Origin: an uncultured Chlorobiaceae bacterium
GTDB taxonomy: Bacteria; Bacteroidota; Chlorobiia; Chlorobiales; Chlorobiaceae
Assembly: GCA_903882665.1 (NCBI GenBank)
Contig: CAIRXW010000047.1
Coordinates: forward strand, 62,001-126,000
Direction of reading: 5' to 3'
Length of the DNA stretch: 64,000 nucleotides
The notes under the pieces are model-generated. The model searched no databases, was not told where the DNA came from, and saw only the letters and a list, made by a program, of their open reading frames with translations. Both the position numbers and the translations under genes were made by a program. This document shows, piece by piece, positions 11,530-14,351 of the stretch. Within the stretch, counting starts at the first letter, position 1; each line of letters begins with the position of its first letter.

Positions 11530-12018
11530 GTGATGGAAACGGTATTTATCGAAACAACAATTCCCAGCTATTACGTCGCTCGGCGAGCGCGTGACATTGT
11601 ACAGGCAGCAAGACAGGAACTCACAATTGAGTGGTGGGATAACCATCGTTCCCGTTACGAATTGCTTTCATCCCAAATCGTTCTTGATGAGTTGGCGCGT
11701 GGAGAACAAGCAATGGCTATGAAAAGACTGGAACTGATTGAGAATATTTCTTTACTTGTGATAAGTGAACCGGTGATAAAAATCGCAGAAGAATTACTTC
11801 GGGAAGGAATTGTTCCACAAAAGGCGGCAGATGACGCATTTCACATCGCATGTGCAGGGGTTCATCGTGTTGATTTTCTGTTAACAAACTGCACCCACAT
11901 CGCCAACCCTCATAACAGAAACCGCATTGAGCGTTGTTTTACTCGATATCAAATTAAAATGCCAGTAATATGTACCCCTGAAGAATTTATTGGAGACGAT
12001 TATGCAGACTATAACTGA
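11530..12018 (+). CDS. PIN-domain RNase toxin (VapC-like)
   Basis: 162-residue PIN-domain protein. FIETTIPSYY gives the first acidic residue, LDELARGE the second region, and KAADDAFHIA the third acidic cluster, followed by FLLTNCTHI, matching the PIN nuclease fold of VapC-type toxins that cut RNA. The downstream 75-residue gene overlaps it by 17 bases and is the likely partner, giving a toxin-first gene order. Family assignment is good; activity is inferred. Confidence 0.82.
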   Translation: MMETVFIETTIPSYYVARRARDIVQAARQELTIEWWDNHRSRYELLSSQIVLDELARGEQAMAMKRLELIENISLLVISEPVIKIAEELLREGIVPQKAADDAFHIACAGVHRVDFLLTNCTHIANPHNRNRIERCFTRYQIKMPVICTPEEFIGDDYADYN

Positions 12019-12229
12019 TCAAAAAACAGATTCAATCATTCGAGAAGTCCGTTGCCTGAAAGAAGAGAATGCCGCTGAATACGATTTCGACATCCGATTG
12101 ATCGCAGCAGCAGCGCAATTGAGGCAACGCCAGCATCCTGAACGAATCGTGACAAGGATACTGACGGATGCTGAAAAAGTGCATGGAAAAGAAGCGCTAA
12201 CACGCCGCGTAACGGAGCATGAGTTGTGA
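12002..12229 (+). CDS. putative antitoxin partner of the PIN protein
   Basis: 75 residues from ATG 12002 (a TTG at 11990 is also in frame). It contains IIREVRCLKEENAAEYDFDIRLI, a sequence style I associate with small proteins encoded next to ETTIPSYY-type PIN toxins. The 17-base overlap with the PIN gene supports co-expression. No recognised DNA-binding motif is obvious. Confidence 0.65.
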   Translation: MQTITDQKTDSIIREVRCLKEENAAEYDFDIRLIAAAAQLRQRQHPERIVTRILTDAEKVHGKEALTRRVTEHEL

Positions 12230-12361
12230 GACTAACTTTTTTTATCTTAAAAGGGTCAAGCGACACCGCTTGAAGACTATCCTTGGGGAGACAGAGGATT
12301 TTCGATAATAGACCCCATTACTCGCTCTACTTCTATTCTGATCGGGAGCCAGTTGAGGAGT

Positions 12362-12700
12362 TCAAGCAATAAGTAAAGAAACCCAAAGAGCCATAGCGGA
12401 ATCCTCAAGGTAAATCTTGTCGGGCCTCGTGAGCACCTCATACCCGCGACCCTGACTGCGCACCAGATTCAGCAACCTTGCATCCTGCAGATTTTCCAGA
12501 TATTCATAGAGACGTGGCCTGGAGATATCGGTTGCCTCTGCCAGTTTTGATATGTTCGGGATAAACGGAACGCTCGTCGCCAGAAGGTAGGATAAGCCAA
12601 TGCTGTTCGTTGAAGAAGTGTTCCATTGCACATCTCCTGATCCTGCGCTTTCTGTAAAACTGATTTTACAAAAATACAGAATAAATGGAAAAAGCGGCAA
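12362..12700 (-). pseudogene. fragment of an ATP-binding protein (AAA / DUF4143 type)
   Basis: The central part of this 112-residue frame (PNISKLAEATDISRPRLYEYLENL, then LLNLVRSQGRG and RPDKIYLED) matches the winged-helix and following segment of DUF4143-type AAA ATPases, which are normally about 400 residues. The P-loop half is absent and the C-terminus ends shortly after KIYLE, where intact proteins continue. The first roughly 35 residues look unrelated. It is best read as a truncated remnant at an old recombination point in the island. Confidence 0.65.
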
Positions 12701-12818
12701 CTACCATGACAACGACAAACAAGCCATGAGTTGTATCAATGGGTGTGTTCAACGATGTTCTGAATCAAACAATACAACAGTAAATTATGATATAATAGTG
12801 CCACAAAATAAAAATTTG

Positions 12819-12838
12819 ACAGGGGGCAAGCCCCCTGT
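12819..12838. repeat. GC-rich hairpin downstream of the DUF1566 gene
   Basis: Perfect inverted repeat ACAGGGGG-CAAG-CCCCCTGT: an 8-base stem with a 4-base loop (or 9 and 2). It lies 29 bases past the stop of the minus-strand DUF1566 gene. On the minus strand it is followed by an A/T-rich stretch, so it could act as a terminator, but its geometry also resembles the hairpin that follows variable regions in diversity-generating retroelements. A similar GGGCTTGC hairpin occurs at 50887-50912, so membership of a dispersed repeat family is a third option. Confidence 0.75.
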
Positions 12839-12867
12839 ACCCCGCTAATTGTTGAATAGATAAATGG

Positions 12868-13323
12868 TTAAAAAGCCCGCACAGCCCGAACCCGACCGTT
12901 GTTCGCCGTCTTACCGTACTGGCCCTCGTACCCATTGACGAAGTACTGGCCCCACGCGCTAACCGCACTGTCCTCCGTAGAACTCCAGTAGTCGTTAGCC
13001 GCAAAACCGCCAACAACACTTTTGTGCTTGTAGAGTTCATTCAGTTCCCATTTATCGGGCAAATACCAGTCAGAAAAGCCGCCATCAACAAAACGCTCAC
13101 CGGCATCTTTTGCGCCTTGCCAATCATATGCACCCGGTAAATCCCTTGTTGCTGCAATCAAACCATGGGCACCGGAAGGGTCAATATAAAACACAATACC
13201 GCCTTGACAACGCTGACCAATAGATACAGCAAAAGAAACGGCTGAAACCGAAACCATACTCAAAACGGTGAACAAGAGCATTATCCATAACCGGGCAAAG
13301 CAAGCTTTTGCATGAAGTTTCAT
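12868..13323 (-). CDS. secreted DUF1566 (Lcl-like) domain protein, putative DGR target
   Basis: 151-residue protein with a basic start and a hydrophobic signal peptide (about residues 1-33), then a compact DUF1566 domain: GGIVFYIDPSG, HGLIAA, DWYLPDKWELNELY, ANDYWSSTE and the terminal RVRAVRAF. From residue 109 on, the positions that differ from the DUF1566 proteins I recall as DGR targets have Asn in those proteins (as in AWNQNFNNGNQ), and the codons are compatible with AAC/AAT templates mutated at A. This suggests a variable region made by a diversity-generating retroelement acting in trans. Probable role: surface or periplasmic ligand binding. Confidence 0.8.
   Translation of the reverse strand: MKLHAKACFARLWIMLLFTVLSMVSVSAVSFAVSIGQRCQGGIVFYIDPSGAHGLIAATRDLPGAYDWQGAKDAGERFVDGGFSDWYLPDKWELNELYKHKSVVGGFAANDYWSSTEDSAVSAWGQYFVNGYEGQYGKTANNGRVRAVRAF
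12871..12999 (-). other. candidate DGR variable region of the DUF1566 gene
   Basis: Codes for residues 109-151. Read on the minus strand, candidate variable codons are GAC, GTT-AGC, GGC, TAC, GTC, TAC, GAG-GGC, TAC-GGT, and ACG-GCG. Fixed codons (TGG, CAG, TTC, AAG, GTT-CGG-GCT-GTG-CGG-GCT-TTT) lie between and after them. Most of the variable codons end in C or T and could derive from AAC/AAT by change of adenines only; GAG and ACG would need A-rich codons ending in G. No template repeat or reverse transcriptase was seen in this window, so this is a hypothesis based on the codon pattern and recalled family sequences. Confidence 0.5.
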
Positions 13324-13495
13324 GATGATTACTGTTTGGTTTTAAGGGATTTGTGAAGCTGGCCAAACTGCAGAAGAAAATAACACTTGCAATGTACAAA
13401 ATTTACAGGGATGTTTGTTTTCAGAAAGGCTGGCAATTGAACGGACACAAGCACAATCCCCCATCCTGGGAACTCATTGCACAAAAAAACCATTT

Positions 13496-13592
13496 CTGTA
13501 CGGAAAGATGCTCAAAAACAGAGATTGATTGTGACCGCAGGTACGAATGGTTCGTCGAAAACAATCCGTACCGAAAAACTGCCAAGTCCTGA
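13496..13592 (+). pseudogene. decayed remnant of a zeta-like toxin gene
   Basis: This stretch resembles the start of the intact zeta-like gene at 10384: GATGCTCAAAAA, then GATTGATTGTG, AATGG, and CCGAAAAACTGCC match 10390-10470 in order, with scattered substitutions. The Walker A codons are altered, and in the old frame the copy stops soon after. It is therefore a broken second copy of the 5' end. The 13324-13495 part upstream holds no gene I can support. Confidence 0.65.
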
Positions 13593-13680
13593 ATGAATAG
13601 GTAGAGGGAGTTGGATTTTATTCAAACTTTAATTTTATCTTTCTCACTTTACGGTCTCTCACTAATTTTGGAGGTGTTTC

Positions 13681-13929
13681 ATGACTCAAGTTATTGTGTG
13701 CAATATCGATGATGATGAAAATCGCTTGCTTGAAGCGCGTGCTGCCCGGCACGGTTGGAGTATAGAGGAAGAGGTGCGTCAGATTTTGCGCAGTGCTGTC
13801 AGCGATGAGGTTCCTGCATATCAAAATCTTGGATCACGTATTGCTGCCCGGTTTGCAGGCGTTGGCCTGACCGAACCATTGGTTGAACTCCGTGGGCACA
13901 CCATTGAACCGATGAGTTTTAGCTCATGA
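13681..13929 (+). CDS. fitA: FitA-like ribbon-helix-helix antitoxin
   Basis: 82-residue antitoxin. The N-terminal VIVCNIDDDENRLLEARAARHGWSIEEEVR is the FitA/Arc-type ribbon-helix-helix DNA-binding module; the C-terminal tail would wrap the toxin. A GGAGG lies just before the ATG. The stop overlaps the ATG of the PIN toxin (ATGA). It very probably autoregulates the pair at its own promoter, as FitA does. Confidence 0.87.
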   Translation: MTQVIVCNIDDDENRLLEARAARHGWSIEEEVRQILRSAVSDEVPAYQNLGSRIAARFAGVGLTEPLVELRGHTIEPMSFSS

Positions 13930-14351
13930 TTATGCTCGACACCAACGTCTTGTCTGGCCTGATGCAGCAGCAGCCCGACCCGCAGGTAGTGGCTTGGCTG
14001 GACGGGCAGTCTGCCCAATCCATCTGGTTGAACAGCGTCACCTTGTTTGAAATACGATTTGGTTTGGCCTTGGTGGCATCCAGTCGCCGCAAAAAATTGC
14101 TTCATGAACGATTCGAGGAACTTTTGCAAGATGACTTGCAAAACCGTGTCCTGCTCTTTGATGCTCATGCCGCAGCCCAAGCAGCACAATTGGCGGCTGA
14201 TCGCAAGGCTGGCGGTCGTCCGGTAGACATGCGTGACACCTTTATTGCAGGTATTGCTTTGGCACACAACGCAATTCTGGCAACTCGTAATATTCGACAC
14301 TTTAGCGACTTGTCTGTTGCCGTTGTCAATCCTTGGGACTGGCAAGCCTGA
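13926..14351 (+). CDS. fitB: FitB-like PIN-domain toxin
   Basis: 141-residue PIN-domain RNase. MLDTNVLSGLM carries the first Asp, TLFEIRFGL the Glu, and DMRDTFIAGIAL the third acidic cluster, ending with TRNIRHF and VVNPW, which are FitB/VapC hallmarks. Coupled to the antitoxin by a four-base overlap. The pair appears intact, unlike the YoeB-like pair earlier in the island. It marks the right edge of the island: cydD starts 113 bases later. Confidence 0.88.
   Translation: MIMLDTNVLSGLMQQQPDPQVVAWLDGQSAQSIWLNSVTLFEIRFGLALVASSRRKKLLHERFEELLQDDLQNRVLLFDAHAAAQAAQLAADRKAGGRPVDMRDTFIAGIALAHNAILATRNIRHFSDLSVAVVNPWDWQA

Follow-up and report, generated by a model that had tools for sequence, protein, structure and literature searches.

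The window, i.e., the stretch of 64,000 nucleotides from an uncultured Chlorobiaceae bacterium analysed here, contains a gene which we regard as a recently orphaned target of a diversity-generating retroelement (DGR): probably it was diversified until lately and by now is likely frozen. Judged from sequence comparisons, the gene product is a bona fide variable protein of the DUF1566-type DGR of green sulfur bacteria, and the C-terminal ~35 codons of the gene (12868-13323, minus strand) are a genuine variable region (VR). Directly evident are an adenine-site-specific divergence, the layout of VR, IMH and hairpin, a remnant of avd, and, in sister species, complete cassettes of this kind. That the gene is probably frozen and orphaned is concluded because the matching template and reverse transcriptase (RT) appear to have been lost recently. 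The features are as follows.

12868 to 13323, minus strand: DUF1566 (Lcl_C) variable-protein gene, 151 aa (open reading frame; Pfam PF07603; AlphaFold model)
13225 to 13323, minus strand: putative N-terminal hydrophobic export segment, signal-peptide-like, residues 1-33 (sequence inspection)
12895 to 12999, minus strand: hypervariable VR core, residues 109-143 (42 variable columns in nine VRs, matching adenines of the relatives' templates)
12871 to 12894, minus strand: IMH-like invariant 3' end of the VR, residues 144-151, RVRAVRAF (identity across 13 VRs)
12819 to 12838, no strand assigned: GC-rich inverted repeat behind the VR, putative DGR target hairpin/cruciform (fold and conservation in relatives)
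12742 to 12804, minus strand: degenerate 5' remnant of the avd accessory gene (local alignment to the intact avd of locus L051)

In a Pfam profile search the 151 aa protein scores 43.1 bits for PF07603 against a cut-off of 34.9 and thus belongs to the DUF1566/Lcl_C family. A first structure model, poor in the VR, has residues 3-22 as a helix. Structure comparisons were carried out with a second model, built from a deeper alignment, in which the VR is better than in the first; the AlphaFold model has a pLDDT of 82.6. The only strong structural match is the C-terminal domain of Legionella Lcl (8q4e; TM 0.75, E 2.9e-9). C-type lectins appear as weaker, non-significant matches, which is what one expects of a DGR protein. 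According to Pfam and the model the VR forms the 3' end of the gene and is part of a C-type-lectin-like domain. The variable residues would lie on the presumed ligand-binding face of this domain, and the product may be exported and bind a ligand through a face that was diversified beforehand. A first-pass annotation had called the domain secreted and its diversified face exposed: a hydrophobic N-terminal segment is indeed seen, and the placement on a binding face is one that we infer. Just upstream of the DUF1566 gene, at 13681-14351, an antitoxin-like and a PIN/VapC-like toxin gene form a pair, as recognized by eye, and in the same manner a second VapC-like open reading frame was spotted at 11530-12018.

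The open reading frame contains the variable codons and the terminal RVRAVRAF which were listed at first pass. The stretch CGGGTTCGGGCTGTGCGGGCTTTT is identical in 13 VRs from six genomes. The relatives' templates end in GGGGTTTT and the VRs in GGGCTTTT, i.e., an IMH-type difference. A GC-rich hairpin with an 8-base stem and a 4-base loop had been announced 29 bases past the stop; it is confirmed at 12819-12838 as ACAGGGGG-CTTG-CCCCCTGT and folds with -8.5 kcal/mol (z -2.1; 8 of 200 shuffles are as good). In the 2.8-Mb genome the hairpin is found exactly two times, directly following a DUF1566 VR in both cases, and it is kept behind the VRs of many relatives. Stem and loop size are phage-like, the loop sequence is not GRNA. 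An Rfam search of 12000-14000 returned one sub-threshold match and nothing relevant. The initial codon argument was drawn from one sequence and as such is uninformative: codons ending in C or T are no commoner inside the VR (21/34) than upstream (67/108; 62% in both). It becomes strong once relatives are compared.

A comparison is already feasible within the genome itself (2.8 Mb, 57 contigs, 99.88% complete). Contig C30 holds a second copy, in which the same DUF1566 end belongs to a pentapeptide-repeat membrane protein. Between the two VRs the changes at codon positions 1/2/3 amount to 14/13/1 in 45-47 codons, compared with 29/21/39 in the 69 codons upstream (Fisher p 3e-5). The lone third-position difference is an A/G exchange (A to G). 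Both VRs are followed by the invariant GTTCGGGCTGTGCGGGCTTTTTAACC and then by the hairpin. In the DUF1566 paralogues on contigs C43 and C3 of this genome neither the VR end nor the hairpin was found.

Of 98 genomes of the order, 43 contain related DNA, and almost all of these 43 belong to the same genus (Chlorobium/Chlorobiaceae MAGs). The intact layout, as in L051, consists of a DUF1566 target, a bAvd gene, the template, and an RT with the motifs GLPIGNLTSQ and YVDD; in L051, bAvd, RVT_1 and a DUF1566 target with template were identified. Nine related genomes, each with one or more VRs, were used for comparing VRs with templates. Genome G084 is a tenth with the same cassette layout, and G055 has the template and only part of the RT. 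The relatives' templates read YWSSTENDANNAWNQNFNNGNQNNNNKNN and literally encode AWNQNFNNGNQ, the template form which the first-pass annotation had named. In the nine genomes, VRs differ from their own templates at 247 of 547 adenines versus 17 of 1179 other bases, and several of these 17 are the IMH difference GGGG/GGGC.

For the window VR the own template is missing and the adenine test uses a template inferred from relatives. Nine VRs of the window type, i.e., with the fixed backbone of the window VR, from five genomes/species possess 42 variable columns which are distributed 21/18/3 over the codon positions. These columns coincide with adenines in the relatives' templates (odds ratio 10-30, p 3e-7 to 2e-12). 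With 8-16 non-adenine mismatches, none of these templates is that of the window itself. G052, G062, G023, G054, and G085 each have a direct orthologue of the window gene, recognisable by common flanks. Between the window and G052, differences at codon positions 1 and 2 affect 22 of 68 sites in the VR versus 14 of 232 outside (p 1e-7), i.e., by sequence comparison the orthologous gene is rewritten mainly in its VR. The differences between copies are confined to template-adenine sites. The proposal that this DUF1566 gene is a DGR target, with changes between copies and species restricted to adenines of related templates, is thereby upheld; the refuting outcome named at first pass, changes not confined to template adenines, did not occur. 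The targets of relatives are fused to TIR (L051), kinase-membrane (L065), and pentapeptide-membrane parts (C30, L051). A MAG titled Chitinophaga pinensis (L132, CAMDSC010000049.1) carries a DUF1566 gene with the exact 25-base Chlorobium VR 3' end; this is either a target transfer or a misbinned contig.

Behind the hairpin, positions 12804-12742 align locally with the start of the L051 avd (score 24; shuffle mean 11.5; 0 of 1000 shuffles as good); the window-wide nhmmer match to avd itself is weak (E 0.31). In the orthologous loci the avd stump is seen in graded decay, the remnant in G085 reaching E 3e-7. Debris also lies beside window-type VRs: in G052 one VR is directly followed by avd residues 1-15 and then by RT residues 261-412. 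Residues 1-64 of avd are found behind another G052 VR and one G074 VR, residues 1-44 behind one G062 VR. The G052 locus L065 (G052:C74) is a decaying DGR array: it encodes Ser/Thr-kinase-like membrane proteins in tandem that have DUF1566 VRs at their ends, one of them frameshifted, and it retains a C-terminal RT remnant. Secondary targets, too, have a truncated beginning of avd right behind the hairpin (L051:8653-8769, L060:4580-4455, L062:8840-9034), and such targets occur in genomes with intact cassettes as well. This suggests that DGR targets multiply as units of VR, hairpin and truncated avd, and the stump in the window may mark the duplication of such a module instead of decay in place. 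By either origin it ties the locus to a DGR cassette.

Neither a matching template repeat nor an RT of the matching kind was found at the window locus or elsewhere in its genome, and of Avd there is only the degenerate 5' stump. BLAST searches of the genome, queried with the VR as well as a reconstructed AAC/AAT template, matched only the two VRs. A DUF1566-type RT was not found. The sole RT belongs to a DGR of a second kind, and at E<=10 no piece of another RT or of the template turns up. A DNA-pattern scan of 86 family genomes detected no template of the window type, compared to 13 window-type VRs in six genomes, and viral contigs, phages, and plasmids contained neither template nor VR. The first-pass suggestion of a remote DGR now acting in trans thus finds no support: the pair of template repeat and RT that it called for is absent from the genome, the only RT serves an unrelated template, and this speaks against present-day activity.

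That other DGR is complete (contig C3:50722-52621; L001, L072) and comprises an FGE-sulfatase target VR, an accessory protein with an HRDC domain, an RT, and a template. Remote FGE VRs differ from the C3 template at 14/32 adenines and 1/99 other bases (C3:46260) and at 17/32 adenines and 0/100 other bases (C6:45964), respectively. As far as sequences tell, these remote VRs are evidence that this genome diversifies targets in trans. At C11:25228-25370 (L198:5237-5405) there is another FGE template-like repeat, diverged, with the 3' flank of the C3 template and no adjoining RT. It lies between two FGE VR genes, one of which encodes a TIR-FGE fusion-like protein of 513 aa.

How would the window gene have acquired its VR? 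The DGR chemistry and the ligand role of the protein, as given here, are what we infer. A DGR RT with its Avd partner would have copied a template RNA in which the variable codons were mostly AAC/AAT, with misincorporation at template adenines during copying, and the mutated cDNA would have replaced the 3' end of the gene. The fixed RVRAVRAF-coding end would serve as IMH and the downstream hairpin would mark the site. In this way an exported C-type-lectin-like domain would have received a wide range of alternative residues on its presumed ligand-binding face. Subsequently the matching template and RT appear to have been lost in this lineage, probably leaving a frozen, orphaned target.

The timing can be approached via third codon positions. 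Window and G052 differ at 14 of 116. Had diversification ceased before the split from G052, then at the rate of that split (separation of G000 and G052) about five third-position differences would be expected between the genome's own two VRs; one is seen (P 0.02). Gene conversion was considered as a cause of this low drift and rejected: the variable sites would have been equalised too, and they are still different. The few third-position differences, absent gene conversion, therefore argue that the DGR acted recently in the lineage or acts still from somewhere outside the assembled sequence. This argument is somewhat weakened by synonymous constraint in the IMH.

An active, unassembled DGR could account equally well for how little the two VRs differ outside adenines. 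The matching cassette of avd, template and RT would then be carried by the living organism or by a fraction of its population, be located in an assembly gap or be lost only in the assembled variant, and the target would be live, in cis or in trans. We consider this unlikely, though far from negligible. The genome is in 57 contigs, there is almost no non-adenine drift between the two VRs, VR/TR repeats break assemblies, and in Thiohalocapsa PB-PSB1 long reads uncovered intact RT/TR variants at a locus which looks degenerate in the reference (PMC10907252). Against it, the assembly is 99.88% complete without a trace of a second RT or template at the permissive threshold used, and the template is absent as well from the assemblies of five other species with this VR type, some of which contain avd/RT debris. 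The FGE-type DGR on C3, with its HRDC accessory protein, is a very improbable source. All its parts are present and, as the C6 VR demonstrates, it evidently reaches remote targets, yet its template has no detectable similarity to the DUF1566 VR, and DUF1566 cassettes use another RT (about 31% identical) and bAvd, not HRDC. Because a DGR needs a VR-homologous template and none is present, diversification by this element is nearly excluded.

Least credible of all is a reading without any DGR, i.e., paralogues diverging in the ordinary way or a ligand-binding loop under positive selection, with the hairpin just a terminator. Ordinary adhesins, among them Legionella Lcl, for which we know of no DGR, also contain DUF1566, and a T-rich stretch follows the window hairpin. 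However, selection neither spares third positions nor keeps to template adenines, and the adenine-site test refutes this reading. Further, sister species possess complete DGRs with the same VR end and the hairpin at the same place, and no T-tract follows their hairpins.

Compared with known systems, the window gene is most similar to the DUF1566 DGRs of Chlorobium MAGs (VR - bAvd - TR - RT; e.g., locus L051 at G065:C67). The VR fold, the fixed codons, the 3' end GTTCGGGCTGTGCGGG, the position of the hairpin, and the avd start behind it are shared. Unlike these, the window locus lacks template and RT, its avd is reduced to a degenerate stump behind VR and hairpin, and its fixed bases match none of their templates. 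Thiohalocapsa PB-PSB1 likewise has VR targets at loci without RT and/or TR next to complete DGRs of other classes in one genome, and short CLec-only targets mixed with long fused ones (PMC10907252). It belongs to another phylum with a putatively different RT lineage, and for some of its loci the fitting template exists, either in the genome or in strain variants, whereas none was found for the window VR. The DGR of Bordetella phage BPP-1 (mtd; PMC3240598) resembles the window in adenine-site diversification, a C-terminal C-type-lectin-like VR, an IMH, and a GC-rich 8-bp/4-nt hairpin just downstream. There, the target is a phage tail protein with adjacent template and RT and the loop is GAAA; here, it is a bacterial exported protein and the loop is CTTG (CAAG on the other strand), which does not fit the GRNA consensus of phage DGR hairpin loops (PMC3240598). 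The Lcl C-terminal domain (PDB 8q4e; PMC11162425) has the same DUF1566 fold, with 34% identity and a TM of 0.75. Its lysines 369, 380, 385, and 391, implicated in glycosaminoglycan (GAG) binding (PMC11162425), are fixed and align with DGR-variable codons of the window protein in a region where the pairwise alignment is weak. With more than half of the VR codons variable this overlap is suggestive only.

DUF1566 is a known DGR target domain (PMC4159848), DGRs with several VRs were reported in Chlorobium phaeobacteroides and Pelodictyon (PMC3521204), and degenerate DGR loci were described in Thiohalocapsa (PMC10907252). The window gene is a probably orphaned DGR target of a known sort and no new mechanism is involved; unusual is that the template is missing across six species. 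Tentatively, and with a probability well below even, one may envisage that a class of Chlorobium DGR targets (13 VRs, six species) outlived its template. Modules of VR, hairpin, and avd stump would have grown in number and persisted as fixed repertoires once the mutator was lost: a DGR would have founded a family of binding proteins and then been shed, or an unsampled mobile source would provide it from time to time.

Intact, partial, and stripped cassettes within one genus constitute a clean record of the fate of DGR targets once the mutator goes. VRs are recognisable without template or RT by the codon-position signature, the IMH, and the hairpin. Surveys which start from the RT miss genes such as this one; the survey in PMC8144416 states that its own method misses remote targets. 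Finally, the fusions of relatives' targets to TIR, kinase, and pentapeptide-membrane parts fit the proposal that bacterial DGRs diversify sensors (PMC10907252).
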